A DNA stretch of 64,000 nucleotides from Mucilaginibacter endophyticus (GTDB lineage: Bacteria; Bacteroidota; Bacteroidia; Sphingobacteriales; Sphingobacteriaceae): NCBI RefSeq assembly GCF_003351025.1, contig NZ_QPCG01000002.1, positions 372,001-436,000 of the forward strand. The letters run 5' to 3'. Within the stretch, counting starts at the first letter, position 1; every line of letters starts with the position of its first letter. Under the pieces are notes generated by a model that did not search any database, was not told the DNA's origin, and saw nothing but the letters and a program-made list of their open reading frames with translations. Both the position numbers and the translations under genes were made by a program. Positions 1 through 12,279 of the stretch are shown here, in pieces.

Positions 1-962
1 CTAAAGTAAGCCAAACCAGTATGGAGCAAACTGTAAAGCTGCCTGCGCAACTTTCAGCTTACCAGGAAGTGAGCATTTTTCCAAAGGTTAATGGCTATGT
101 TAAGAATGTAGCGGTTGATATCGGCACAAAAGTGAATAAAAACCAGTTGCTGATGGAGGTTGACGCGCCCGAGATACAGCAAGCCTTATTGCAGGCTAAG
201 GAAAAATATGCCCGCGCAAAGGCTGATTATAACCTTGATAAGGAGAATTACTTTCGTTTAAAAACGGCCTCACGCACTGCCGGGGCTATTTCGCCAATGG
301 ATCTGGCTACCGCCAAATCAAAAATGGAGGCTGATAGTGCCCTGTGCAATGCCGAAAAGGCAAGCTGGCAAATGCAGCAGGCCATGAACAGCTATCTGCA
401 TGTTACTGCACCTTTCAGCGGGATCATTACTGAACGTAACACCCATCCGGGAGCGTTGGTGAGTGCCGAAGCTAAAGACGAACCCATGCTGGAACTTAAA
501 GAAGTAGATCACCTGCGCTTACAGGTTGATGTGCCCGAAGCCCTGGCTTCAGCGTTGAAAAGCAGGGACTCGGTAACCTTTTACCTGTCAGCCATGCCGG
601 GAAAAAAGATGGCAGCTACTGTAAGCCGCAAAGCCGGTAGCGTGAACATTCAATACCGTACAGAACGTGTCGAATTGGATGTTCCGAATAAGAAAGCTGA
701 ATTATCTCCGGGTATGTATGCCGAGGTTAACTTTAAGGCTAAAGGTAATTCTAATGCTTTGACGGTTCCGAAATCGGCCGTTGTCACATCAACTGAGCGG
801 AAATTTGTGATAGCTGTACGCGACGGAAAAACTATAAGGGTTGATGTAGCTACAGGTATCGAAAACAAAAACAACATACAGGTAGTTGGTAATTTGAACA
901 AAGGGGAAAAAGTAATAGCTTCAGCCACAGACGAAATTGAAGAAGGGATAGCGGTTAAATAA
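1..962 (+). CDS. RND efflux periplasmic adaptor subunit (HlyD/MFP family), 5' truncated
   Basis: Membrane-fusion protein that would link an inner-membrane RND pump to an outer-membrane channel in the periplasm. The frame is open from base 3 (KVSQTS before the Met at 21), so the true start and the signal peptide lie outside the window. Counting from Met21, one half of the lipoyl-like domain is at residues 15-45 (FPKVNGYVKNVAVDIGTKV), an alpha-helical hairpin rich in Ala, Lys and Glu at 50-120, the second lipoyl half at 125-150 (APFSGIITERNTHPGALV), then the beta-barrel and membrane-proximal parts ending near VIASATDEIEEGIAVK. The pump gene is not downstream, so it is probably upstream of the window. 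The substrate cannot be told. Family call firm, role inferred. Confidence 0.88.
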   Translation, partial: KVSQTSMEQTVKLPAQLSAYQEVSIFPKVNGYVKNVAVDIGTKVNKNQLLMEVDAPEIQQALLQAKEKYARAKADYNLDKENYFRLKTASRTAGAISPMDLATAKSKMEADSALCNAEKASWQMQQAMNSYLHVTAPFSGIITERNTHPGALVSAEAKDEPMLELKEVDHLRLQVDVPEALASALKSRDSVTFYLSAMPGKKMAATVSRKAGSVNIQYRTERVELDVPNKKAELSPGMYAEVNFKAKGNSNALTVPKSAVVTSTERKFVIAVRDGKTIRVDVATGIENKNNIQVVGNLNKGEKVIASATDEIEEGIAVK

Positions 963-991
963 CCGTTATCCGCCTTAAATTGTATAGCATT

Positions 992-2272
992 ATGGATCAT
1001 GAATTTTTGCATACACCTGCGGGGCCAATAGCTCTGAAAATGGCGGTGGCTATCTGCATTGGTATGCTTATAGGCATGGAGCGCAAATGGTCACACAAGG
1101 AGGCGGGTATCCGTACGTTCGGGATCATTTGCCTGCTAGGGATGCTTTCATCTATTATTGGTGACAGCATGATCATCGCCTCGATGATCGGTGTGTTTTT
1201 GCTGATCATCGCTACCAATACCCGTGGTTTGATGACCAATAAGACCCTTGAGATCACCACATCGGCAGCACTTATCGTAAACTACATTTTGGGTGTGCTT
1301 GTTGGACTAGGCCATATATTCACGCCTGTAGCAGGTGCCATTGTAATGACCATGCTGCTGGCGCTTAAAACTGAACTTAATCGCTTTGCTGGCGGCCTAC
1401 AGTTATCAGAGATCCGCAGTGCTATATTGCTTGGGTTGATAGGCTTTGTGATTTACCCGATCATGCCCGACAGATACATCGATCCATGGTCGTTGTTTAA
1501 TCCGTCGGATGCTTGGGTAAGTATTATTGCCATCGCAGGAATAGGCTTTATTAACTATGGTTTATTAAGAATATTCAGCACCGGGGGCTTGTACCTCGGT
1601 GCCATTTTCGGTGGATTGGTAAATAGCAGCGCCACAGTAGCAGAAGTAAGTAGCAGGGCGGAATCGTCAGGCATGACCTCAAAAATGACCACGCTGTGTT
1701 TGCTGACCACAATCGCGATGTTTGGTAGGAACCTGCTTATCGCTACCATATTTTCGCCTGCATCGATAACCGCTACGTTAATGCCATTGGCAGCGATGTC
1801 GCTCGTAGCGGCTTTGTTCATCTTCAGAGATAAGGTTACCAAAGGCAAACTTGCTGAACCGACAGGTACATTACAACTTGATTCTCCGATTTCAGTAAGC
1901 AAAGTATCGGGTTTTGGCTTGCTGTTCATACTGATACAGGTGGGAGGTACATTATTGACCCGTTTCTTTGGCAGCTACGGTTTATTGGTAACCGGCCTTT
2001 TCGGTGGCCTGGCAAGCAGCGCGAGTACCACAGCCGCGGCGGCAACCATGGCTATGCATGGCAAAATCACGGCATCATTGGCAGGAAGTGTGACCATAGT
2101 TTCATCTTTAGCCAGTGCAGTTGTTAACCTGCCGATTGTGTGGAAAACCATTAAAGATAAAAAAGTACTGCGTAAGCTAACTTTAGAGATTATGGCGGTA
2201 ATCATCATTGGTATTGCGGTTGTGGTGCTGGATCGTATTTTCCTGATTTCTGATATGTTATTGAAGCGATGA
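992..2272 (+). CDS. MgtC/SapB family membrane protein with DUF4010 domain
   Basis: Polytopic inner-membrane protein. The N-terminal ~130 residues carry the MgtC/SapB signature (GMLIGMERKW, then a Gly-rich helix and IATNTRGL). The rest matches the DUF4010 layout, with repeated small-residue helices such as GGLVNSSATVAEVSSRA and GGLASSASTTAAAATMAMHG. About a dozen hydrophobic helices are visible, and the length (~426 aa) is usual for this fused family. I chose ATG 992 over an in-frame TTG at 980. It follows the efflux adaptor by 29 bases on the same strand and could be co-transcribed. MgtC proteins in pathogens affect Mg2+ and phosphate physiology; the function of the long DUF4010 form is not established, so no substrate is claimed. 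Confidence 0.85.
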   Translation: MDHEFLHTPAGPIALKMAVAICIGMLIGMERKWSHKEAGIRTFGIICLLGMLSSIIGDSMIIASMIGVFLLIIATNTRGLMTNKTLEITTSAALIVNYILGVLVGLGHIFTPVAGAIVMTMLLALKTELNRFAGGLQLSEIRSAILLGLIGFVIYPIMPDRYIDPWSLFNPSDAWVSIIAIAGIGFINYGLLRIFSTGGLYLGAIFGGLVNSSATVAEVSSRAESSGMTSKMTTLCLLTTIAMFGRNLLIATIFSPASITATLMPLAAMSLVAALFIFRDKVTKGKLAEPTGTLQLDSPISVSKVSGFGLLFILIQVGGTLLTRFFGSYGLLVTGLFGGLASSASTTAAAATMAMHGKITASLAGSVTIVSSLASAVVNLPIVWKTIKDKKVLRKLTLEIMAVIIIGIAVVVLDRIFLISDMLLKR

Positions 2273-2399
2273 TTCAGCAGCCGGTCGATGTTTTAAAAAT
2301 ACCAGATGAAATTATACCTTCGCCAATTCAAAACAGTCAAAATGAACTACTAAGCTCTATAGTCTCTTAAGTAAATAGGTGTCAATATTGATAAGTACA

Positions 2400-2597
2400 A
2401 TGAGAACGAAGATCACCGGGCATTTCATCCTTTACGAAGTTTTTCAAACATCTACCGGTAATGCCGTAGGTGAGGTCATGATAGCCTGGGACGAGCCTGA
2501 TCATGAAAGGGCTTTGAAAAAAGAGCTAAAAGATCTCAGCAAGGAGATAGGCATCCGCATTGCGGATCTTGAATGGCGAGCTTTAGGAAAGCACTAA
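2400..2597 (+). CDS. small hypothetical protein
   Basis: A 65-residue cytoplasmic protein that I do not recognise. The N-terminal half looks like beta strands (TGHFILYEVFQTSTGNAVGEV) and the C-terminal half like a charged helix (HERALKKELKDLSKEIGIRI). There is no signal peptide and no cysteine. ATG 2400 is preferred; a GTG at 2379 would add seven residues. It stands alone between the MgtC-like gene and a terminator-like hairpin at 2647. Good codon-like composition and an intact frame suggest a real gene, but homology is needed to be sure. Confidence 0.5.
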   Translation: MRTKITGHFILYEVFQTSTGNAVGEVMIAWDEPDHERALKKELKDLSKEIGIRIADLEWRALGKH

Positions 2598-2646
2598 AAG
2601 AACGTATTACGAGATATCAAATTTCTGGATATCATGATATAACAAA

Positions 2647-2676
2647 GATTCCGTTCTCTGATTAAGAAACGGAATC
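2647..2676. terminator. terminator-like hairpin between convergent genes
   Basis: GATTCCGTT (2647-2655) pairs with AACGGAATC (2668-2676) around a 12-base loop. It lies between the plus-strand small gene and the minus-strand XRE regulator and could serve both. The flanking T tracts are short, so termination is likely but not certain. Confidence 0.55.
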
Positions 2677-2689
2677 ATTGTTTATAAGT

Positions 2690-3106
2690 TTAGCTTTTAT
2701 TCTTTAGTATCTCTACCTTTTCTCGCTCGCTTTGCAAAAGACGCTCGTAAAGTTTTTTGTTTTCTTCAATTACTTCAAGCCATTTGTCAATAGGATTGAA
2801 TGTTAATGTACAATTATTATTTATAGAACCCGCATTATCGTGCAGTGTACTAGAGATAATATTTATGGCAGCTTCTTCTGTGAAACTTTTAAAGGCTTCA
2901 ACCGGCACTTTAAGTATGGCGGCTACTTGCGCAAGAATATCATCTTCTATGGTGTCTTTGCCTTCTAACAACGAAACTCGTCTTTGGCTCCAGTCATCTC
3001 CTAACTCTAAAGCCAACGCTTCTTGTTTAATGCCCAGCATTTCTCTGAAACGTTTGATGTTACGGCCGTGGTGGATCTGGGTTGGTTTTTCGCTGGTAGT
3101 GCTCAT
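2690..3106 (-). CDS. XRE-family helix-turn-helix regulator
   Basis: Small DNA-binding regulator of 138 residues. A Cro/CI-type HTH covers residues ~14-72: IKRFREMLGIKQEALALELG, then WSQRRVSLLEGKDTIEDDIL and LAQVAAILKVPVEAFKSF. A short acidic linker and a C-terminal coiled-coil-like helix (IEENKKLYERLLQSEREKVEIL) follow and probably dimerise. This architecture is common in Bacteroidota, often as several copies per genome. It is divergent from the domain A/HEPN gene array with ~180 bases between, so it may control that array; this is inference from position only. No operator could be proven in the gap. Confidence 0.85.
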   Translation of the reverse strand: MSTTSEKPTQIHHGRNIKRFREMLGIKQEALALELGDDWSQRRVSLLEGKDTIEDDILAQVAAILKVPVEAFKSFTEEAAINIISSTLHDNAGSINNNCTLTFNPIDKWLEVIEENKKLYERLLQSEREKVEILKNKS

Positions 3107-3291
3107 TGGATGTTGTTTTAGTCAAAAATAAGAAAAATAATATATAGGTGCGGTCACGCTAAAATAGAAATAACAACAGCTAAAATATCGCTTCCCGCGT
3201 TTAAGATAAACCTTTTAAAGATGGTTTAGCATATTATGGTTCATCAATTTTGTCTTGCCGGTCAATGGAGAACGGCATCAAATTGAAGCTT

Positions 3292-4761
3292 ATGTATTGC
3301 GGTGTTTATGCTCCCTGGGATCACGCTCCAAAATTTCTGCGTTTATCAGAGGTAAAGAATCCCATGCTACCTGTAAAATATTTCTTTGATGCGCATGATG
3401 TTGAAGGCCATGAAGGAATATTAAAGCATTGGCGTGATCATGTCGTAAATGACGGATTTTATAATCATCAAAGGTTCGGGCCAGGAGTTATTTATCACGA
3501 TTACGAATTAAATGTCAGGCTTATAGAGGCTTTGCACTTACTAATGCTGGAGCATGAAAGTACGTCTTATCTTAAAAAGTCGGTAACCGCGGAGCAATTA
3601 GACACCGAAAAGGAGAAATGGGTTTGGTTTCCGTCTGGTTTATCAGAACAAGAATTATATAACCCTTACATAATAATTAAAGCTGCTTTCAAAGAAATAG
3701 AGCCACAGGAGTTCAGGGATCATCTCAGCGAGTGGCTCGTCGCTGCATTGTCGGTTCAGGCAATTGATGAATCTGTGACACCCGGGGAGATTATCACAGT
3801 GTTTGAGCACCTTAAAAAGCTCTACTCTGCCGCCTGGATAATCAGGCAACGCGAACACGATAAACCACTATTAAGAAAAAATCACTTAGGAAATAATGGA
3901 TCTGAAGACATTATGGAAACGGTAATTAAAAAATCGAATCAACCAATCCTTAGGGTCGTCCAAACACCTGCAGAAAAACTTGCACTGAAGGAGGTTACTA
4001 ATGCGATACTTAAAATAGTTCCCTCGGTTAAGGCTATTATTCATATCGGCAGGGTTAAAAACGCGGAAACATTTATGCTATATCTAATAGTTGACGATGC
4101 TAAAACCACTATCGACCGGAAGCTTAACAAGATAATTGAAAATGGAGTCGAAAATCTGATCACAATAATAACCGTAATTGAAAGCATAAACGTTTTACAG
4201 AAACAAGGTGACGAAAAATCGGCCTTCCTCAGATATGTAATAGCGAAAGGTATTATCGTTTACCAGGCCGTGGGTGTGGTTTTGAATGAGCTGCCGACGT
4301 TAGTTCCATATGCGAGTGCAAATTCCGAGGGAGGATACCTTCAGCAAAAGCTAAGAGAAGCCAGCATGTGTTACGATCTCATAGATTTTCAGATCGATGC
4401 TCAAAAGCCATTTGAATCGATTTCGTTGATCGCCCAATCTATGATTGCCACACTGCAAGGATTGCTGTTCTTTATGACTGGTTACAAAACTAATATGGCT
4501 GAAATTGAGAAATTATCCTGGTTAACACAGCTATTTACCAATGATATTGAAGAGCGTTTTTGCCGTCTTGCCACATTAGAGAGTGATTTATACACTCACC
4601 TAATGAGTGCGCAACCTGATATTATTGATATCGTACCTGACATAACACTTCCGGAAGTATTAAAGTTAAAAATTGAGCTTGTTAATCAACGAATGATCGT
4701 TCGAAACCTGATGAGCATCGGCAATATCCAAACGGATACAGCTGATCTTATTAATTCTTAA
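3292..4761 (+). CDS. domain A fused to a degenerate MNT/HEPN-like module, uncharacterised
   Basis: About 490 residues in two parts. Residues 1-200 are an unrecognised domain (A) found again at 4777 and 6519; shared marks are PWD/E-x-x-PK near the start, a W and FV motif near 55, NPY near 130, Q-x-F/Y-RD near 147, and an A-x-W-I/L-x-x-QR end. After a linker, residues ~230-470 resemble the HEPN protein encoded at 5386: a beta-rich nucleotidyltransferase-like half ending FLRYVIAKGIIVYQ, then a helical half with LLFFMTGYKT. The histidine expected after GYK is absent (GYKTNMAEI). ATG 3292 aligns best with the other copies; ATG 3265 and TTG 3250 are possible upstream starts. Function unknown; similarity judged by eye. 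Confidence 0.7.
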   Translation: MYCGVYAPWDHAPKFLRLSEVKNPMLPVKYFFDAHDVEGHEGILKHWRDHVVNDGFYNHQRFGPGVIYHDYELNVRLIEALHLLMLEHESTSYLKKSVTAEQLDTEKEKWVWFPSGLSEQELYNPYIIIKAAFKEIEPQEFRDHLSEWLVAALSVQAIDESVTPGEIITVFEHLKKLYSAAWIIRQREHDKPLLRKNHLGNNGSEDIMETVIKKSNQPILRVVQTPAEKLALKEVTNAILKIVPSVKAIIHIGRVKNAETFMLYLIVDDAKTTIDRKLNKIIENGVENLITIITVIESINVLQKQGDEKSAFLRYVIAKGIIVYQAVGVVLNELPTLVPYASANSEGGYLQQKLREASMCYDLIDFQIDAQKPFESISLIAQSMIATLQGLLFFMTGYKTNMAEIEKLSWLTQLFTNDIEERFCRLATLESDLYTHLMSAQPDIIDIVPDITLPEVLKLKIELVNQRMIVRNLMSIGNIQTDTADLINS

Positions 4762-4776
4762 ATTTTGACGTGTATA

Positions 4777-5358
4777 ATGATGTATAGCGGTAAACATGTC
4801 CCATGGGATAATTTTCCTAAAAGCCTTAGTTTTCAAGAAATACAATACCCACTATCCATTTTGAAAGAGTTTTTCGACTTTGACTGGCCCGAAGGGCATT
4901 TCGAAGATCTGAAAACTTGGCGATCATTTGTGATTTCAGATAGACACTATACCCACGAAAAATTTGGCGCCGGAAAGCTATTAAGCAAATATCATTCTAC
5001 TTTAAAACTACTCGATGCACTATACGTCCTGCATTTATTAAATCGTGATGATCCAAGTGAGGCAGTAAGTGAAGAGCAATTAGCTGACGAACGAAGCAAT
5101 TGGTATTGGATGCCTGAGAACCTTTCAGAAGAAGAAATACTGAATCCGTACTTGCTTACAAAGCGCATTTTCAAAAAAATTAAACCCCAACAATTCCGGG
5201 ACTATTTGATGGAATGTATAGATTTTGCACTTGGCCCCAACCCTGTCAATTCAATGACTGCAAAGGAAGTTATTTCTTTATTTAAAAAAATCAAAAAACT
5301 CATTTCTGTAGCCTGGATAATTCGTCAACGTGAAACTGAGACGCCAGTTTACAAATGA
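4777..5358 (+). CDS. stand-alone domain A protein, uncharacterised (copy 2)
   Basis: About 193 residues, made only of domain A. It begins MMYSGKHVPWDNFPK and ends SVAWIIRQRETETPVYK, aligning along its length with the N-terminal 200 residues of the 3292 protein (shared PWDxxPK, SEEEILNPYLL, PQQFRDYL, KKIKKL). It looks mostly helical, has no signal peptide or membrane segment, and is rich in aromatic residues. The gap from the previous stop is 15 bases, and 27 bases separate it from the HEPN gene, so the three are probably one transcript. A TTG at 4765 is an alternative start. I do not recognise the family; pairing with HEPN genes suggests a partner, antitoxin-like or sensor role, which is inference. 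Confidence 0.7.
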   Translation: MMYSGKHVPWDNFPKSLSFQEIQYPLSILKEFFDFDWPEGHFEDLKTWRSFVISDRHYTHEKFGAGKLLSKYHSTLKLLDALYVLHLLNRDDPSEAVSEEQLADERSNWYWMPENLSEEEILNPYLLTKRIFKKIKPQQFRDYLMECIDFALGPNPVNSMTAKEVISLFKKIKKLISVAWIIRQRETETPVYK

Positions 5359-5385
5359 GCAAAGTATATTAAATGAATTTTCAAC

Positions 5386-6288
5386 ATGAAAAACGACCCG
5401 ATTAAACTTTCCGATTCGCAAATCAAAGAACTGCAGGAAATAGCGACAGCGTTAACCAATCAGTATCAAATTGAGAAGATCATTTGCTTTGCTGCGATAA
5501 ATAAATCAAGCGGGGAAACTAATGTCTTTAATCGTTCAAAAGTTGTTTCAGTAAAAAATTACTATTTACTGGTAATGACTACTGAGGTTACCCGTGTCGA
5601 GCATGCAATGCAGGACTTCATCAGCAAGTTATTCCCAGGTACATTTGTGATCGCACATGGCCTTGAAACGGTGATGAACCTCGTTTACAAATACGACACT
5701 TTCTTTTTGAATGCCTGTTTAAACGGAGCATTGATTTATACATCCGACGGCTTTACGATGATTCCTGATTTCGACGAAGGAAAAGCCGAAGAAGCCATTT
5801 TGAAAGATTGCGAAGCTTTTAAAAGGATCTACAACCTTGCATTGGGCTTTTTGGAGAGTGCATGGAATTGCCTTGAAAATGACTTTGACAACAATGTTAT
5901 CTTTTTACTTCATCAGGCCGTTGAGCAGGGTTGCCGCGCATTGATAAGACTGCTTACAGGATATCGGTCTGACATCCATAATATCAGCCGGCTGCTGGAT
6001 TTCTGCAATTGCTTTTCGACAGAGCCATCGGCACTTTTCCGGCGACATTTTGCAAAAGAAAAGCATCTATTTAAGGTACTTGCCGCAAGCTACTCGGATG
6101 CCCGATATAAAGATAACTATCAGGTAGTTGACCATGAAGCTGATTTATTATGCACACAAGTGCAAGCCTTTCTTGATCTAATAGAAGAACTGGCAAAAAA
6201 AGAAACCGCACCGGGTACTGCTAGGACCACAGTTGAGGCATCGGCAGAGGTCGTGGATTATTCCCCGGCCCTGCCTGCTTCGCTGTGA
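5386..6288 (+). CDS. HEPN domain protein with nucleotidyltransferase-like N-terminus
   Basis: 300 residues. The N-terminal ~125 residues are a beta-alpha fold like the minimal nucleotidyltransferase-like part found before HEPN in Bacteroidota (IEKIICFAAI, then FFLNACLNGALIY), but the catalytic GSx10DxD motif is missing. The C-terminal helical HEPN domain (~145-265) carries IFLLHQAVEQGCRALIRLL, then TGYRSDIHNISRL and YSDARYKDNYQV, which match the family pattern. The RxxxH spacing (RSDIH) is one short of the usual RX4-6H ribonuclease motif, so activity is uncertain. A low-complexity tail ends ETAPGTARTTVEASAEVV. HEPN proteins are often RNases in defence and toxin systems. The 90-base 3' end is duplicated at 6386-6475. 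Confidence 0.72.
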   Translation: MKNDPIKLSDSQIKELQEIATALTNQYQIEKIICFAAINKSSGETNVFNRSKVVSVKNYYLLVMTTEVTRVEHAMQDFISKLFPGTFVIAHGLETVMNLVYKYDTFFLNACLNGALIYTSDGFTMIPDFDEGKAEEAILKDCEAFKRIYNLALGFLESAWNCLENDFDNNVIFLLHQAVEQGCRALIRLLTGYRSDIHNISRLLDFCNCFSTEPSALFRRHFAKEKHLFKVLAASYSDARYKDNYQVVDHEADLLCTQVQAFLDLIEELAKKETAPGTARTTVEASAEVVDYSPALPASL

Positions 6289-6385
6289 TTGCTCTAAGGA
6301 GTGTCCATCGAACTTCATAAAACAGGAACTGGCATCGGCTAATGAAGTCAGCAATGAAATTTAATAGGGATTGACGATTGATTAT

Positions 6386-6475
6386 AAAGAAACCGCACAG
6401 GGTACCGCTAAGGACGCAGCGAAAGTATCGGCAGAGGCCGTGAATTATTTCCCGGCCCTGTCAGCTTCGCTGTAG
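6386..6475 (+). pseudogene. remnant duplicate of the HEPN gene 3' end
   Basis: These 90 bases align without gaps to 6199-6288, the last codons of the HEPN gene, at about 80% identity by eye. They keep the frame: KETAQGTAKDAAKVSAEAVN, then YFPALSASL and a stop, against KETAPGTARTTVEASAEVVD, YSPALPASL and a stop. No matching body lies upstream, and an in-frame TAG stands at 6365. It is best read as the tail of a second HEPN gene that was otherwise deleted. Confidence 0.7.
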
Positions 6476-6518
6476 ATTTCACTTCTGGGATAATGACACG
6501 GATTTAAAATATAAAAAG

Positions 6519-7088
6519 ATGTATCGTAGAGAAACAGCCCCATGGGAGCATTTTCCAAAGAATCTAACGATTAGCGAATTGCTCGATCCGCTAATAACAA
6601 TAAGGGAATATTTTGAGGCAGGACCACCCAAAAAGAGGTTCAATAAAATAGATCGCTGGCAGTATTTCGTAATTAAAGAAGATTTTTATAACGACCCAAA
6701 TCTTGGCCCCGAACCATTACTTTTAGCTTATGACCAAAATTTGAGGTTTATGGAAGCCGCTTATCTATTACTACTAAAGCACAATGATCTTAATCGTTTC
6801 CCAGGAAGAATTGCAAAAGATGAATTGGAGGTAGAACGGCGAGCATGGGATTATTATCCAATCACTCTTACCGATGACGAAATCATTGATCCATATACGG
6901 TATTAGAAAATTGTTTCAAAGAATTTCCACCTCAAACTTACCGAGATAATCTACACGCCTGGTTACATGCTGCCTTATCTACGCAAACCGACCACGATGT
7001 ACTACCGCCAAGTGAGGTTATCGTTTTCCATGATTGTATAAAGCGCTTAATTGATGCTGGGTGGCTTCTTAAACAAAGACTAAAGTAA
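6519..7088 (+). CDS. stand-alone domain A protein, uncharacterised (copy 3)
   Basis: 189 residues, a third copy of the domain found at 3292 and 4777. Conserved points are APWEHFPKNL at the start, the W and YFVI near residue 47, FMEAAYLLLLKHND, DPYTVLENCF, PQTYRDNLHAWLHAALS and AGWLLKQR at the end. It is the most diverged copy at the extreme N-terminus. Soluble, no signal peptide. It directly follows the remnant HEPN tail and is itself followed by a short open frame with a similar-looking tail, as if each domain A gene once preceded a HEPN gene. Function unknown. Confidence 0.7.
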   Translation: MYRRETAPWEHFPKNLTISELLDPLITIREYFEAGPPKKRFNKIDRWQYFVIKEDFYNDPNLGPEPLLLAYDQNLRFMEAAYLLLLKHNDLNRFPGRIAKDELEVERRAWDYYPITLTDDEIIDPYTVLENCFKEFPPQTYRDNLHAWLHAALSTQTDHDVLPPSEVIVFHDCIKRLIDAGWLLKQRLK

Positions 7089-7115
7089 ATTTCCCGAATA
7101 TCGTTTTGAAAAAAA

Positions 7116-7199
7116 ATGAAGGCAGTGTCGGCAGGCGGTTCAGTTTCTCAGGCCGTCTCGCCACTCGGCCTAGACGGCCGCAAACCAAAGGTAGTGTAA
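7116..7199 (+). other. 27-codon open frame, possible third tail remnant
   Basis: A short frame from ATG 7116 to TAA 7197-7199 reads KAVSAGGSVSQAVSPLG. It faintly resembles the HEPN tail (KVSAEAVNYFPALSASL) and lies where a HEPN gene would be expected, 28 bases after the third domain A gene. Either a degraded tail, a small peptide gene, or chance. It contains a GC-rich hairpin. Confidence 0.25.
7151..7179. repeat. GC-rich inverted repeat
   Basis: GGCCGTCT (7151-7158) and AGACGGCC (7172-7179) can form an 8-bp stem with a 13-base loop after the domain A array. There is no T tract, so a simple intrinsic terminator is not indicated. Confidence 0.4.
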
Positions 7200-7574
7200 T
7201 AAGATAAGAAAATTAAACTGAGGACTGGTAGCTCGATGGAAGTGTTGCAAGGTCACTGATTTGTGATCTTGCTCACCCATTGGAATATGGATTTTCGGTT
7301 AAAATGACCTTAACCATAAACGGAGAATTGTTAATGAACGCCTGAAACTCTAACAGTTTAATATGATTAGGTTATCAGAAATACAGTTGAAACCTCGACA
7401 AACGGCTTGGTTAATTCGCAGAATCTGGCAGCTTAGCTTTTACCTGTTGATTAAATTATATTTAATTAATGAATAAATCGCATATCTGAATATCTGAGAC
7501 TTTACAAGGTCTCTTTATGATAAGGTTTAGGAAAAAGTCCCGGCGGCGAGCGTTTTGGGTTTATTATTTTTATA
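7200..7574. other. non-coding gap between domain A array and ORF6N gene
   Basis: About 375 bases with no convincing open frame on either strand. I see a weak hairpin GAGAC...GTCTC around 7496-7513 and otherwise AT-rich sequence with scattered stops. It may be decayed island sequence; I found no copy of the tRNA 3' end here. Confidence 0.5.
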
Positions 7575-8108
7575 TTAATTGTCACTGTCCGGCATGTATC
7601 CAATCCGTTTTCTCGCTAATTGTTGTGACTTTTTCTCGATTAATTCATCCAGATATCCAAATACCAACTCAAGGCTTTTATCCTGCCTGATCAACTTGCT
7701 TTTAATTTGTTCAATTTCCAACCGAAGCTCTGTATTATCAAGATACATATTTCTTATCCGGTTGAATATCCTCATAACCTGAATGTTAACCTGGATGGCC
7801 TGTTTGCTGTTCAATACGCTTGAAAGCATCAATACGCCATGCTCGGTAAAAACATAGGGGAGTTTTCGTCGCCCTCCACGTTTTGATGTCGCAATTTGCG
7901 ATATCAAACTTTCAAATTCGGATTCATTCAATCTAAACATAAAATCATCCGGGAACCTGTCCATGTTTCTGGTTACTTGTTCGTTCAGACGTCTTGTTTC
8001 TACGCCATAAAGTTCTGCGAGGTCGCTATCCAGCATTACTTTCTGATCCCTTATATAATAGATTTTAGTCATGATGATATCATCAGCTACTGATTTTATA
8101 TTGCTCAT
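7575..8108 (-). CDS. ORF6N domain protein (KilA-N-related, phage/island type)
   Basis: About 177 residues. The ORF6N domain fills residues ~10-105: KIYYIRDQKVMLDSDLAELY, then TRRLNEQVTRNMDRFP, DFMFRLNESEFESL, LPYVFTEHGVLMLSSVLNS. A helical, probably coiled-coil C-terminus (LRLEIEQIKSKLIRQDKSLE) follows. ORF6N proteins are found on phages, islands and in Bacteroidota chromosomes; DNA binding is suspected from relation to KilA-N but mostly untested. I start at the Met in MSNIKSV (8108); an upstream ATG at 8150 would fall inside the palindrome and give an unlikely leader. It is downstream of the integrase on the same strand. Confidence 0.82.
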   Translation of the reverse strand: MSNIKSVADDIIMTKIYYIRDQKVMLDSDLAELYGVETRRLNEQVTRNMDRFPDDFMFRLNESEFESLISQIATSKRGGRRKLPYVFTEHGVLMLSSVLNSKQAIQVNIQVMRIFNRIRNMYLDNTELRLEIEQIKSKLIRQDKSLELVFGYLDELIEKKSQQLARKRIGYMPDSDN

Positions 8109-8135
8109 GTATGTGTCGGTTATAAATGTGATAAT

Positions 8136-8167
8136 TAACCATAGAGCCATAATTGGCTCTATGGTTA
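8136..8167. repeat. 13-bp perfect palindrome between integrase and ORF6N gene
   Basis: TAACCATAGAGCC (8136-8148) and GGCTCTATGGTTA (8155-8167) form a perfect 13-bp stem with loop ATAATT. It sits 16 bases beyond the integrase stop and upstream of the ORF6N start. It could be the integrase terminator, although the following T tract is poor, or an operator for the ORF6N gene. Confidence 0.6.
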
Positions 8168-8183
8168 TTGAATAGCTTGTCTT

Positions 8184-9395
8184 TTAATAAATCTGCCTTA
8201 GCTTAGACATATCCTGGGCGACTTTCATATCAAGGATTTTCGCGTAGTGTTGGGTTGTTTTGATGTTCGTATGGCCTAGCATCTTAGATACACTTTCGAT
8301 AGAAACGCCATTTGCAAGCGTTACTGTAGTTGCAAAAGTATGGCGGGCTATGTGGTAAGTCAGTTCTTTATTGATGCTACAGGCATCAGCTATTTCCTTC
8401 AAATAGCTATTCATCTTCTGATTGCTCAATACAGGAAGCAATAAACCATCATTCACACATTGAGGGTGGTCCTCATATTTTGCCATTAATTCCATTGCTT
8501 GGGGAAGTAAAGGAATTCGGGACGAAGTATCTGTTTTCTGACGACTGGTATAAACCCATTTCTGGCCGTCGATTCCGGTTACGATTTCTGAACGTTTTAA
8601 TTTCTTTACGTCCGCATATGCCAAGCCTGTGTAGCAACTGAAAAGAAAAATATCCCTTACTTGTGATACTCTATCACTAACAAGCTTCTTTTTTGCCATC
8701 ACCTCCAGTTCCTCAGCGTTTAAGAAGTCGCGTTTAACCTCTTTAACTTTCGGCTTGTATTTGGCAAATGGATCTCTATCAAGCCATCCGTTGGCAATAC
8801 AGATCAGAATGATCTTCTTGAAGTTTTTTAGGTACTTAACGGTTGAGTTATTGTTGCAACTCCTTTCCGAACGCAAATAAAAGTCGTAAGCCATAATAAA
8901 CTCGTGGTCAATTGCCCGGATATCAATATCGCTGGAGTTAAACTTCCATTTCAGGAAGGCCTGCGTATGTTTCAAACTTGTTTCGTACCGATCAAGCGTC
9001 CCCTTTGCATATTCTTTGCCAATAAGCGCAGCAACCTGACGGTTATGTTCCTGGAATATTGGCACCAGCATTTTTCCGGGTGATGGTTTTCCGCCGAGAA
9101 GTCTGTCTTTTAAGTTGGGAGCGGTGATCAGCAACTTACGCTCTATCATATCCCGGTGGGCATCGTACACTTGGTGTGACAATGTTTTCAGGTAAGCATT
9201 GATACTTTTTGTATCCTCATTGTTCCCGGTTAACTTTTGGCCGTTTGTACTCCATTTGTCGGCATTGACATAGCGTTTAGAGGAGATTTCGATACGAACG
9301 CCATCGATAGTGATACGCAGGTAAACAGGGGCGAGGCCTTCGGCATTTGTTTTTGATCTCTTTACGTAAAAGAGGAGGTTAAAAGATTTGTTCAT
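8184..9395 (-). CDS. tyrosine recombinase / site-specific integrase (Bacteroidota type)
   Basis: About 403 residues. Order: N-terminal arm-type domain (NLLFYVKRSKTNAEGLAPVY), SAM-like core-binding domain (~110-210), and catalytic domain (~215-400). Visible catalytic parts are HIARH (~348-352), LGH (~375) and the nucleophile Tyr in TTQHYAKI (~384). The first catalytic arginine position reads CYTGLAYADVKKL, with Ala where classical members have Arg, as in some Bacteroidota element integrases. Start is the Met of MNKSFNLL; a longer frame to 9446 seems unlikely. It lies next to tRNA-Ser and reads away from it, as expected of an island integrase. Mobilises by strand exchange at att sites. Confidence 0.9.
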   Translation of the reverse strand: MNKSFNLLFYVKRSKTNAEGLAPVYLRITIDGVRIEISSKRYVNADKWSTNGQKLTGNNEDTKSINAYLKTLSHQVYDAHRDMIERKLLITAPNLKDRLLGGKPSPGKMLVPIFQEHNRQVAALIGKEYAKGTLDRYETSLKHTQAFLKWKFNSSDIDIRAIDHEFIMAYDFYLRSERSCNNNSTVKYLKNFKKIILICIANGWLDRDPFAKYKPKVKEVKRDFLNAEELEVMAKKKLVSDRVSQVRDIFLFSCYTGLAYADVKKLKRSEIVTGIDGQKWVYTSRQKTDTSSRIPLLPQAMELMAKYEDHPQCVNDGLLLPVLSNQKMNSYLKEIADACSINKELTYHIARHTFATTVTLANGVSIESVSKMLGHTNIKTTQHYAKILDMKVAQDMSKLRQIY

Positions 9396-9495
9396 CGCTG
9401 AAGCTTTTAAGTGAATAAAATTAGTTACATATCCTCCTGAAATCAAGATGTTTAAATACTAAACAGGCTCAATAACAGTGACTTATAAGCATTCT

Positions 9496-9540
9496 GGTGA
9501 CCAGCGATTATACCTTTAAAAAGGTCACCCGCAGGTCACC
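9496..9540. repeat. three GGTGACC/GGTCACC heptamers upstream of integrase
   Basis: GGTGACC at 9496-9502 is the reverse complement of GGTCACC at 9523-9529 and 9534-9540. The group lies between the integrase gene and the tRNA, where recombinase arm sites, excisionase sites or an autoregulatory operator would be expected. Function is inference. Confidence 0.45.
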
Positions 9541-9586
9541 GGAACAAAGCGATCTATTGGTTTATTTTGGTGTGGGCTAAAAACAG

Positions 9587-9620
9587 AAAACGCCGTAAAT
9601 GATTTATTTACAGCGCTTTT
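9587..9620 (-). terminator. intrinsic terminator downstream of tRNA-Ser
   Basis: Read on the minus strand, AAAAGCGCTGTAAAT pairs, with one bulge and one mismatch, with ATTTACGGCGTTTT and is followed by CTGTTTT. It starts 20 bases after the encoded CCA end of the tRNA. Confidence 0.7.
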
Positions 9621-9640
9621 GATCCTAATTGAATAATACT

Positions 9641-9730
9641 TGGCGGAGAGTTAGGGATTCGAACCCCAGGAACCTTTCACAGTTCAACAGTTTTCAAGAC
9701 TGCCGCAATCGACCACTCTGCCAACTCTCC
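9641..9730 (-). tRNA. tRNA-Ser(UGA)
   Basis: The minus strand folds as a type II tRNA: acceptor arms GGAGAGT (9730-9724) and ACTCTCC (9651-9645), discriminator G, encoded CCA (9643-9641). The anticodon loop CTTGAAA has anticodon TGA (9696-9694), reading UCA and related Ser codons. A long variable arm and the GGTTCGAATCC T-arm are present. The 3' end faces the integrase, a typical island target. Confidence 0.96.
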
Positions 9731-9735
9731 GGCGA

Positions 9736-9766
9736 CAAAAGTACAAATCTGAACCGAATTGCCAAA
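9736..9766 (-). promoter_or_regulatory. Bacteroidota promoter of tRNA-Ser
   Basis: On the minus strand TTTG (9766-9763), exactly 19 bases, then TACTTTTG (9743-9736), an exact fit to the Bacteroidota sigma-A form TTTG-N19-TAnnTTTG. The tRNA 5' end follows after 5 bases. Confidence 0.85.
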
Positions 9767-9828
9767 TTTGATTTGCACTTTTTTTAATTTAATTAAATAA
9801 TCTATATAAAATACTGATTAACAGAAAG

Positions 9829-10809
9829 TTAATTTTTTATTTGAGTAACTTTTTTCGTCCGAAAAGTATTAAAACGAGGTTTTACGATACGGATTGTACG
9901 CTTGGAAAGCTCTACCGACGCGTTTAATTCGAACCCGATGATCAAAATTAATGAGTTTATATACATCCAGATCATCACTACGATGAGCGTCCCGATAGAT
10001 CCGTAAACTTTATTATACGACGAGAAGTTATTGATGTAGTACGAGAAGCCGAGGGAAGTTAAAACCGCCAGTGCCGTAGCCAATATAGAACCCGGGTTTA
10101 CGAAGTTCCACTTCTTTTTATGTGCAGGCGCATAACGATACAAGCAACCTATAGTAACAAAAATAATCACCACAATAATCACCCATCTAAACAGCATTAC
10201 AGGGTACACCCAGAAGTGATTTTCGGAGGCTACGTGAGATTGGATGAACTTGATAATAGATTGGCCTAATATCAGGATAGAAATGGCCAGCAGTAATGCA
10301 AAGCTAATGGCAACTGTAATACCGGTGGCTACTAAACGACGTCGGAGCCACGTCCGCTTATCTTCAATTAATGACGACTTATTAAACGCTTTCATCAAGT
10401 TGATAACTCCGTTGGTCGCAAAATACAGGGTCGACAGAAAACCGAATGAAAGCAATTTTCCATTCTGATTGCTCACAATATCAAAAAGGGTTTCCCTGAA
10501 GGCCATATAAGCGTTTGTAGGCATTACAGAAGCCAACACCATCATCAGGTTACCCCTGAAATGCTTAATGGGTACATAGGGGATAAGCGTAAACAAAAAG
10601 ATGGTGGCTGGAAAAATGGCCAGCATAAAACTATAAGCCAACGCGTAAGCCCGGTTAATGAGCGAATTGTTGGTGATTTCCTTAACAAAGAAATCAATAA
10701 CAGTATAAAGCGGCAACGGCCTGAAACCGGGGATGATGACAGATTTTGTCCACTCGATGATGTACCTGTAGAACCTAAACCGGAGTAAAAAACGGTGCAG
10801 CCATTTCAT
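9829..10809 (-). CDS. YihY/BrkB family inner-membrane protein
   Basis: 326 residues with six predicted membrane helices. Family marks: RAYALAYSFMLAIFPATIFL near the N-terminus, the NGVINLMKAFN motif in the middle, RWVIIVVIIFVTIGCLYRYA, then GSILATALAVLTSLGFSYYI and YGSIGTLIVVMIWMYINSLI near the end. Ends in a basic tail. Members were once called ribonuclease BN in error; they are membrane proteins of uncertain role. It is the last gene of a minus-strand run that begins at 13389, with 10 bases to the thioesterase gene. Confidence 0.88.
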   Translation of the reverse strand: MKWLHRFLLRFRFYRYIIEWTKSVIIPGFRPLPLYTVIDFFVKEITNNSLINRAYALAYSFMLAIFPATIFLFTLIPYVPIKHFRGNLMMVLASVMPTNAYMAFRETLFDIVSNQNGKLLSFGFLSTLYFATNGVINLMKAFNKSSLIEDKRTWLRRRLVATGITVAISFALLLAISILILGQSIIKFIQSHVASENHFWVYPVMLFRWVIIVVIIFVTIGCLYRYAPAHKKKWNFVNPGSILATALAVLTSLGFSYYINNFSSYNKVYGSIGTLIVVMIWMYINSLILIIGFELNASVELSKRTIRIVKPRFNTFRTKKVTQIKN

Positions 10810-10819
10810 TTACCCAAAT

Positions 10820-11227
10820 TTACTTAAAAAAGGGTATTAATCTATCAGTAAAATCTTGCGGCGGTAAACACGGGCGATTGGTTTTCATATTGATGAATAC
10901 CAGCAGTGTTTCACCGGTATTAATGAGCTCACCTTTCGGGTTTGAAAGCTCATACCTGAAATGAATACGAATGCCCGGCAATTTATCCATAATTACCCTG
11001 ATGCTGATCTCTTCGTCGTACAAAGCAGGTTTCAGATACTTACAGTTCAGTTCAAGCACCGGCATCATAATGCCCGACTCTTCCATACCCTTGTAGGTAA
11101 GCCCAAGACTCCGGAGCATTTCTACACGGCCAACTTCATAAAACTCGGCATAATTGCCGTAGTACATATAACCCATCTGATCGGTTTCGCCATAGCGCAC
11201 CCGTATTTTGGTGGTGTGCTCAAACAT
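10820..11227 (-). CDS. acyl-CoA thioesterase, hotdog fold (YbgC/FadM type)
   Basis: 135 residues, one 4HBT hotdog domain. The N-terminal RVRYGETDQMGYMYYGNYAEF holds the catalytic Asp of the 4-hydroxybenzoyl-CoA thioesterase family (ETDQMGYMYYGNY). ELNCKYLKPALYDEEISIRV follows as the central strand pair. It would hydrolyse acyl-CoA esters in the cytoplasm; the true substrate is not known. Its ATG shares one base with the mltG stop codon (TAATG), a sign of translational coupling. Confidence 0.87.
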   Translation of the reverse strand: MFEHTTKIRVRYGETDQMGYMYYGNYAEFYEVGRVEMLRSLGLTYKGMEESGIMMPVLELNCKYLKPALYDEEISIRVIMDKLPGIRIHFRYELSNPKGELINTGETLLVFINMKTNRPCLPPQDFTDRLIPFFK

Positions 11228-12279
11228 TACCGGAGGATGTTACGTTCGTTAAGGGCTTGTTGAAATTTATGCGCGTTAACCAAATGGTCGGCCACATTGG
11301 TAGCAAAGGCATGGTAACCCGAAAAATCAGCTTTGGCACACATATAAATGTAATCGTTCTTTTGATAGTTGAGCACTGCCTTTACAGCATTAACTGATGG
11401 CATCATGATAGGCCCCGGAGGTAAACCTTTATGCAGATAAGTATTGTATGGCGAATTGTATGAAAGGTAACGCGTGAGTACACGTTTTATAGTAAAATCA
11501 TTCATCGCGAAGATCACTGTAGGATCAGCGTCCAGCGTCATGCCTTTTTTTAAACGGTTAAGATATAAACCCGCTACAGCAGGCATTTCATCATCATGCA
11601 GCGCTTCTGCATCAACTATTGACGCCAGGATAGATACTTCTTGCGGAGTAAGATTTATAGCGGCAGCTTGTTGTTTACGTTCAGGTGTCCAAAATGCCTG
11701 GTAATGGTCATACATCCGTTTAAAGAATTTCTCCGGACTTGTGTTCCAGTACATCTGGTATGAATCGGGCATGATCACGGTATACACGTTATCAGTAGTA
11801 AAGCCATATTTACTTACAAAACTTGCCGAATCAAGCAGACGGATAATTGCCATTGAATCGGGTTCAATCTTTTTGGAAATAAAACCGGCAAATTGCTCCT
11901 TAAGCCTCAAGCCATGAAACTCAACCTTAACGGGCTCCTGGGTACCCGATGCCAGCATATTGATAAGTTTACGGTTACCTAAACCTTCATGCAGACGGTA
12001 TTTACCCGGCTTTACACGGGTAGTATAATTCATGTTACGGGCTGCCCAAGCAAACGATGCCGTGTCTTTAACAATACCCTCATCCTTGATAGTTTTAAAA
12101 ACATCGTCGAAAGTCGCGCCCGTGTGAATACATAAATACTCTTGTTTGCCGGTAACGTTAGGGCCAAAGTACTTAAGGTAATAATTGAAACCTGTAAAAC
12201 CCAAAAGCACTACGATAACGACTACCAGTGCTATGATAAATTTTTTGAGCATGCCTGATCCTTGTTTTTTCGCGGTCAT
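11227..12279 (-). CDS. mltG: endolytic murein transglycosylase MltG
   Basis: 350 residues. A short basic N-terminus and one membrane helix (FIIALVVVIVVLLGFTGFNY) anchor it in the inner membrane; the YceG-like domain lies in the periplasm. Catalytic-region marks are ILASIVDAEALHDDEMPAVAG (the conserved Glu of the E-x-x family motif lies in VDAEAL), LYLNRLKKGMTLDADPTVIF and NSPYNTYLHKGLPPGPIMMP. MltG cleaves nascent peptidoglycan strands and influences glycan length. In operon with PASTA, rhodanese and thioesterase genes; overlap of one base with the latter. Confidence 0.93.
   Translation of the reverse strand: MTAKKQGSGMLKKFIIALVVVIVVLLGFTGFNYYLKYFGPNVTGKQEYLCIHTGATFDDVFKTIKDEGIVKDTASFAWAARNMNYTTRVKPGKYRLHEGLGNRKLINMLASGTQEPVKVEFHGLRLKEQFAGFISKKIEPDSMAIIRLLDSASFVSKYGFTTDNVYTVIMPDSYQMYWNTSPEKFFKRMYDHYQAFWTPERKQQAAAINLTPQEVSILASIVDAEALHDDEMPAVAGLYLNRLKKGMTLDADPTVIFAMNDFTIKRVLTRYLSYNSPYNTYLHKGLPPGPIMMPSVNAVKAVLNYQKNDYIYMCAKADFSGYHAFATNVADHLVNAHKFQQALNERNILR

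Follow-up and report, generated by a model that had tools for sequence, protein, structure and literature searches.

HEPN RNases are dimers with the active site at the interface. In MntA-HepT, the HEPN-MNT type VII toxin-antitoxin, HEPN and minimal-nucleotidyltransferase (NTase) folds occur together, as they do at the locus described here, which lies in a 64,000-nt stretch of the 7.5 Mb genome of Mucilaginibacter endophyticus (contig NZ_QPCG01000002.1, positions 372,001 to 436,000; hereafter the window). Unlike in MntA-HepT, a single chain here holds both the NTase and the HEPN part, the NTase motif is absent, and the role of inhibitor may fall to a second, apparently dead, HEPN chain. The genes upstream of the HEPN gene are a stand-alone copy of a helical domain that we call A (A2) and a fusion of domain A to a HEPN-like half, and the NTase-like fold is in the HEPN chain itself. 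Because the GS...DxD motif and a separate MNT gene upstream of the HEPN gene are both missing, neither protein makes a HEPN-MNT pair, and assignment to the type VII systems was rejected.

The same NTase plus HEPN layout is seen in the bacterial 'nucleotidyltransferase and HEPN domain-containing protein' WP_280736483.1 from a Sinorhizobium numidicum plasmid, which has FLLHQAVE, SHNL and ARY in common with the stand-alone HEPN protein of the window. The rhizobial copy has GSYAR...SDFD and Polbeta/NTP_transf_2 matches, whereas the pattern SDxD[LIVFY] is found in none of the 105 Sphingobacteriaceae rows that we compared, and a looser GS...DxD in one solo fusion; the NTase-like part is probably inactive across this whole Sphingobacteriaceae set. 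The rhizobial locus table contains no domain A and no pseudo-HEPN partner. Rhizobial relatives (L188, 2411-3325) are carried on conjugative plasmids with the NTase motif intact, the motif being lost in the Sphingobacteriaceae set.

For AbiV and some HEPN-T proteins (AF0298), the passages of PMC3710099 on these families describe an alternative active site: a conserved His that lies between helices 2 and 3, and the usual motif's basic residue at the Rx4-6H place. His198 and Arg240 of the stand-alone protein fit this description, by position only. The similarity to AbiV is weak (Z 8.0-8.5). The best structural match of both HEPN parts is the HEPN protein of PDB 4nqf, where the compared chain is the HEPN part alone. 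Among the anti-phage defence profiles of PADLOC 2.0.0 no family matched any of four proteins from the locus at E<=1. Within open-access PMC text we found no paper joining HEPN with pseudoenzyme, none joining 'HEPN domain' with Mucilaginibacter or HEPN with Pedobacter mobile elements, and no use of the phrase 'nucleotidyltransferase and HEPN'.

The fusion is encoded on the forward strand at 3292-4761 (489 aa from ATG 3292, or 503 aa from an alternative TTG at 3250) and is defined by its ORF, a profile match and a structural model. Domain A takes up 3292-3855 (~188 aa), as judged from the secondary structure of the model and a DNA similarity boundary at 3837-3843; an NTase-like fold without the GS...DxD motif follows at 3967-4266 (model residues 226-325) and a degenerate HEPN domain at 4330-4719, placed by 4nqf_A and by the alignments. 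Upstream, an XRE/Cro-C1-type HTH gene (2690-3106, reverse strand; PF01381 at 23.2 bits, cut-off 23) is divergent from the fusion, and a 5'-leader hairpin, TGCCG...CGGCA (3256-3277, forward strand), lies directly before the fusion ATG. Downstream on the forward strand are A2 (4765-5358; TTG at 4765, ATGs at 4777 and 4780), the stand-alone NTase-like plus HEPN protein (5386-6288; PF05168, E=9.5e-10) and A3 (6519-7088), a stand-alone domain A whose ortholog in M. oryzae (L106) is the A gene that follows the HEPN gene there. An ORF6N gene (7575-8150), the tyrosine recombinase of the element (8184-9446; PF00589, PF17293, PF13102) and the tRNA-Ser that it adjoins (9641-9730) are all on the reverse strand. 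No convincing attachment-site duplicate of the tRNA-Ser was found in 1-9900 (D2, 73% over 26 nt), and in an Rfam scan of 1-10000 the tRNA alone was above the gathering score.

Several smaller features surround the HEPN gene. A2 is in frame with the HEPN gene across a single TGA and 27 nt (5356-5386), so that the two make up a 508-aa frame interrupted by one stop. All seven of the 300-aa partner proteins discussed below end in SPALPASL or nearly so, an end not common to six other stand-alone HEPNs compared. An 88-nt partial duplicate of the 3' end of the HEPN gene lies downstream of it (6386-6473, forward strand; a tblastn match), 82% identical to 6199-6286 of the partner tail at 6199-6288. At L065 (5794-7778) and L107 (7514-9462) the HEPN gene is directly followed by an additional gene resembling a recombinase (PF00589 in L065) and by a gene for a ~351-aa protein.

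The original prediction, made by eye, held that the C-terminal half of the fusion parallels the stand-alone HEPN protein. Taken alone, a two-sequence BLASTP comparison of the two is not significant (E=0.025, 23% over 90 aa). A family profile built from intact C-halves and stand-alone HEPNs, with the degenerate fusions left out, does match the window fusion at E=1.1e-28 (for the ORF set of this analysis), so that with relatives as stepping stones the resemblance is firm. AlphaFold2 models of the stand-alone protein (mean pLDDT 78.7, pTM 0.80) and of the fusion (mean pLDDT 77.3, pTM just 0.53) agree in all 14 elements and in their order: the NTase-like part runs H E E H E H H E, and the six helices of the HEPN follow. 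The HEPN parts both match 4nqf best (fusion, Z 16.0 over 140 residues, 2.9 A; stand-alone, Z 19.4 over 141), while the N-terminal, NTase-like parts both have MntA and aminoglycoside nucleotidyltransferases as matches, at Z of about 8-10. Among the VIA structure matches the fusion gave MntA 7aer_A (Z 9.9; rows covering residues 222-476) and the stand-alone protein the HEPN toxin 8xdj_B (Z 9.5). The two halves thus share common ancestry and the HEPN fold, and both the proposed fusion and the likeness noticed by eye proved right; different folds in the two halves, which would have spoken against the prediction, were not what the models gave.

Fold, Pfam score and residues all identify the stand-alone protein as a HEPN protein. 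The window fusion has no Pfam family at E<=1 and misses the PF05168 cut-off, a family that scores 24.9 bits (cut-off 22) in its degenerate relative L106 and 16 bits in L107. Since the C-half has the four-/five-helix HEPN fold in its predicted model (4nqf_A) but fails both the Pfam cut-off and the residue comparison below, it is best called a pseudo-HEPN. A search of 399 genomes of the family, with at most three fusion candidates scored in many of them, gave fusion or A-domain matches in 108 and the HEPN protein in 215.

For the residue comparison we used 67 distinct fusions, taken from the loci fetched and so a subset of all genome matches, together with 38 HEPN ORFs that either stand alone or are split. 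Fusion ORFs of at least 420 aa were taken, the broken L030/L122 and L085 were left out and a locus present in several copies was counted once. Seven fusions are paired with a 300-aa HEPN gene directly downstream: those of the window, L007, L065, L106 (= L008), L009, L105 and L107. His198 of the stand-alone protein (codon 5977-5979) shares its column with Ala403 of the window fusion (codon 4498-4500). This His is kept in 58 of 60 unpaired fusions and in all 38 stand-alone or split ORFs, compared with none of the seven paired fusions, where the residues are P, P, P, N, I, R and A. Arg240 of ARY is present in 54/60 unpaired versus 2/7 paired fusions, Glu180 in 59/60 versus 4/7 and His176 in 56/60 versus 2/7; across the three motifs the Gly of GY is the sole residue retained in all seven. 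The window fusion has also lost the SYSxARY segment by deletion and has no LHQxxE, so neither the His nor the Arg of the conserved catalytic positions is found in its C-half. All seven stand-alone partners, on the other hand, retain His176, Glu180, His198 and Arg240. Loss of the conserved residues is confined to the fusion, in an operon that is itself conserved. With its fold, PF05168 match, His198, Arg240 and Glu180 all present, the 5386 protein is likely to be the active HEPN RNase partner.

The original prediction had set GYKTNMAEI of the fusion against GYRSDIHNI of the stand-alone protein and read the fusion as a degenerate HEPN joined to a partner-type domain. Loss of the His stands, as does its conservation in the wider family, and it extends to SYSxARY and LHQxxE with the fold retained. 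The Arg of GYRSDIH carries less weight, being present in only 52 of 60 solo fusions. It is absent as well from the rhizobial relative with the intact NTase motif, which has LHQAVE, SHNL and ARY but no Arg before SHNL, so that His plus ARY is the deeper signature; judged from these alignments, LHQxxE, His198 and ARY (Arg240) are firmer markers than this Arg. Two unpaired fusions also lack the His, L010 (Tyr) and L004 (Gly), and neither has a partner next door. L004 (1483-3009) is a second, unpaired fusion of the same genome (L175, positions 1-12000 of the same contig) with a degenerate GYNRQDGKF. Its XRE gene is almost the same as that of the window, and its position in the tree is unsure on account of its long branch.

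Domain A is not confined to the fusion. The N-terminal ~190 aa of the fusion match A2 at 41% (E=5e-47) and A3 at 33% (E=1e-42), and A-only genes are known as A2, A3 and L134. There was no match above cut-off in Pfam, NCBIfam, PADLOC or PHROGs; the best PHROGs match of the fusion was phrog_11472 alone, at E=0.099. The possibility that domain A is a second HEPN was rejected, there being no profile similarity. In the domain-A tree six of the seven paired fusions form a clade with the A-only L134 (100/99), the A domain of L007 groups with A2 of the window (97/98), and A3 joins its M. oryzae (L106) counterpart at 100/100; DNA at 6386-7311 of the window matches L187. In all 19 loci fetched from another genus of the family, A and HEPN are encoded by two neighbouring genes with the HEPN first, which supports a functional link between the two. 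The His is kept in all 19 of these HEPNs (18 by pattern, with SYRSDIHHL in L165), though the HEPN frame of L170 is broken. Separate A and HEPN genes also occur in some Mucilaginibacter loci (L095, L098).

Taken together we put at a little short of an even chance that the fusion, as a HEPN pseudo-enzyme without catalysis, acts as a regulatory or specificity subunit for the intact NTase*-HEPN protein of the gene immediately downstream. Loss of the His beside an intact HEPN partner in all seven distinct loci fits a non-catalytic regulatory subunit, though a single origin of pairing is the simplest view and the seven losses are then not seven independent events. The pairing in the loci examined suggests that the dead HEPN controls the live one. 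As HEPN RNases are dimers with an interface site, a live:dead heterodimer is an obvious way to restrain the enzyme. Catalysis would reside in the stand-alone protein, presumably an RNase, and the fusion and the intact HEPN would heteromerise through the HEPN interface, with the dead subunit restraining or placing the live one. Domain A would be a sensing or docking domain, and sensing of a trigger would release or activate the live HEPN. The divergent XRE protein may repress the operon, and in the solo fusions of the same family both roles would be combined in one chain. The fusion may also be an immunity protein in the toxin-antitoxin sense.

How the dead half has evolved bears on what it might be doing. 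The window is similar in DNA to five other paired loci, L186, L187, L105, L185 and L107, over part of the XRE gene, the leader and domain A; the similarity ends at 3837-3843 and restarts at 5369-5460, with the HEPN gene. L184 alone has traces of DNA similarity in the C-half, and its A domain matches A2 of the window. Between the window and L065 the amino-acid identity is 73% for A, 28% for the C-half and 78% for the partner. Where the A domains are 0.55-0.70 identical, identity of the HEPN part is 0.25 in paired fusions (10 pairs) versus 0.60 in solo fusions (244 pairs).

The trees of the three parts conflict. For the domain-A partition of the seven loci the C-half tree was worse by 96.8 log units (p-AU 7e-150) and the partner tree was accepted (p-AU 0.105); for the partner partition the loss was 169 log units with the C-half tree (p-AU 3e-8) and 26.6 with the A tree (p-AU 2e-4); and for the C-half partition the A and partner trees were both rejected. 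As a control we used 12 overlapping random sets of seven solo fusions. With the same script, placing the C tree on A cost 2.9-18.9 log units in these sets versus 101.5 in the paired set, and placing the A tree on C cost 0.07-79 versus 326.6. The A tree on the C-half was rejected in 4 of the 12 solo sets (p-AU 7e-6 or less), which indicates that there is some exchange or rate conflict in solo fusions too. The dead half is exchanged modularly between lineages, like a swapped cassette, in conflict with the trees of A and of the partner. All seven partners fall into a single clade (100/100), which lies among the stand-alone HEPNs and outside the fusions, and an origin of the stand-alone HEPN from the fusion's own C-half is therefore unsupported; the paired-fusion C-halves unite at 91/96 (not starred), on long branches.

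Exchange of a half between conserved flanks is the pattern expected of a specificity or control cassette. It is possible, though on the doubtful side, that the dead HEPN works as a control cassette, hypervariable and exchangeable, in a mobile-element conflict module. Set between a conserved A and a conserved live HEPN RNase, it would be swapped or diversified from one element to the next, as happens with specificity subunits. The main rival to a regulatory subunit is that the C-half is a superseded remnant, in which the fused HEPN has been drifting since the operon gained a stand-alone HEPN, and only domain A still matters. The very fast divergence of the dead half, with P, N, I, R and A at the His column, fits such a loss of constraint, and the A-only genes A2, A3 and L134 show that A occurs by itself. 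Set against this, the half is exchanged between lineages as a unit, which would be odd for dead weight, its predicted fold is kept and all seven ORFs remain open over its ~250 codons though amino-acid identity drops to 28%. Its pN is also below pS (pN/pS 0.40-0.63 in six pairs), but with pS near saturation this ratio speaks only weakly for constraint. Part of the pattern is explained by a useless half drifting fast; as an account of the whole we regard such drift as rather doubtful.

The surroundings of the fusion raise a different alternative. In 57 distinct fusion loci with longer flanks, an XRE homologue is on the opposite strand in 53, within 400 nt in 51 of these, and at least one relaxase (23), DUF5712 (11) or integrase (11) cluster gene is present in 40; the XRE motif is also on the opposite strand in the paired loci L184, L185 and L187. 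Over 27 sequences and five pairs, 89.6% of cells in the leader hairpin are paired, a value reached by none of 500 shuffles and compared with 27-60% in slid versions; the L004 row fits poorly, the hairpin being weakly present there. Upstream of the fusions L105-L138 the hairpin covaries and follows a TTTG-containing, promoter-like stretch. The upstream sequences compared for A2, HEPN and A3 do not show it. A genome-wide regulon was rejected, as the single exact match in the own genome is at the locus itself; allowing up to two mismatches, the hairpin pattern has 11 matches there versus 3 for a reversed control. Between the XRE gene and the fusion, at about 3180-3235, are group-specific, operator-like repeats, GATAGAAA/TTAGAAA in some loci and GTAAATGTACAAA and TGTAAAGTACAA at the same place in others. 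No tblastn match of the fusion was found in plasmid and phage records, where near relatives of the window may be missing.

The flanking mobility genes at 40 of 57 loci, the divergent XRE gene and the conserved leader hairpin would all be expected if the system were a mobile-element regulator rather than a toxin or defence system, controlling transfer or excision in the manner of RteC in CTnDOT, with the HEPN binding or trimming the element's own mRNA, perhaps the leader hairpin. RteC is a protein of Bacteroidota mobile elements, a setting like that from which the fusion comes. Domain A, however, has no profile similarity to the RteC of CTnDOT-like conjugative transposons, with no PF09357 match at E<=1 and an hhalign probability of 0.4% against five RteC rows, so its identification as RteC was rejected; a search of the own genome with the RteC model found nothing. 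The HEPN-A pairs of the other genus, moreover, mostly occur without an XRE gene (present in 3/19), and we consider an element regulator of this kind unlikely. That the fusion is still an RNase acting through other residues is very improbable, since, although HEPN families using alternative active-site residues are described in the parts of PMC3710099 on such families, the three motifs keep just one common residue in the seven paired fusions and the window copy lacks the ARY segment.

The locus adds to Mucilaginibacter a common protein family with a domain that is unnamed in the libraries used. Within it, the solo fusions with the full HEPN signature and the paired fusions, decayed and modular, form a natural before-and-after series for the birth of a pseudo-enzyme. 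Should the dead half indeed be an exchangeable control cassette, the type of pseudo-HEPN would set what restrains the live RNase, or the live RNase's recognition. With two genes as the system, it becomes testable whether a live HEPN can be held back by a dead one.
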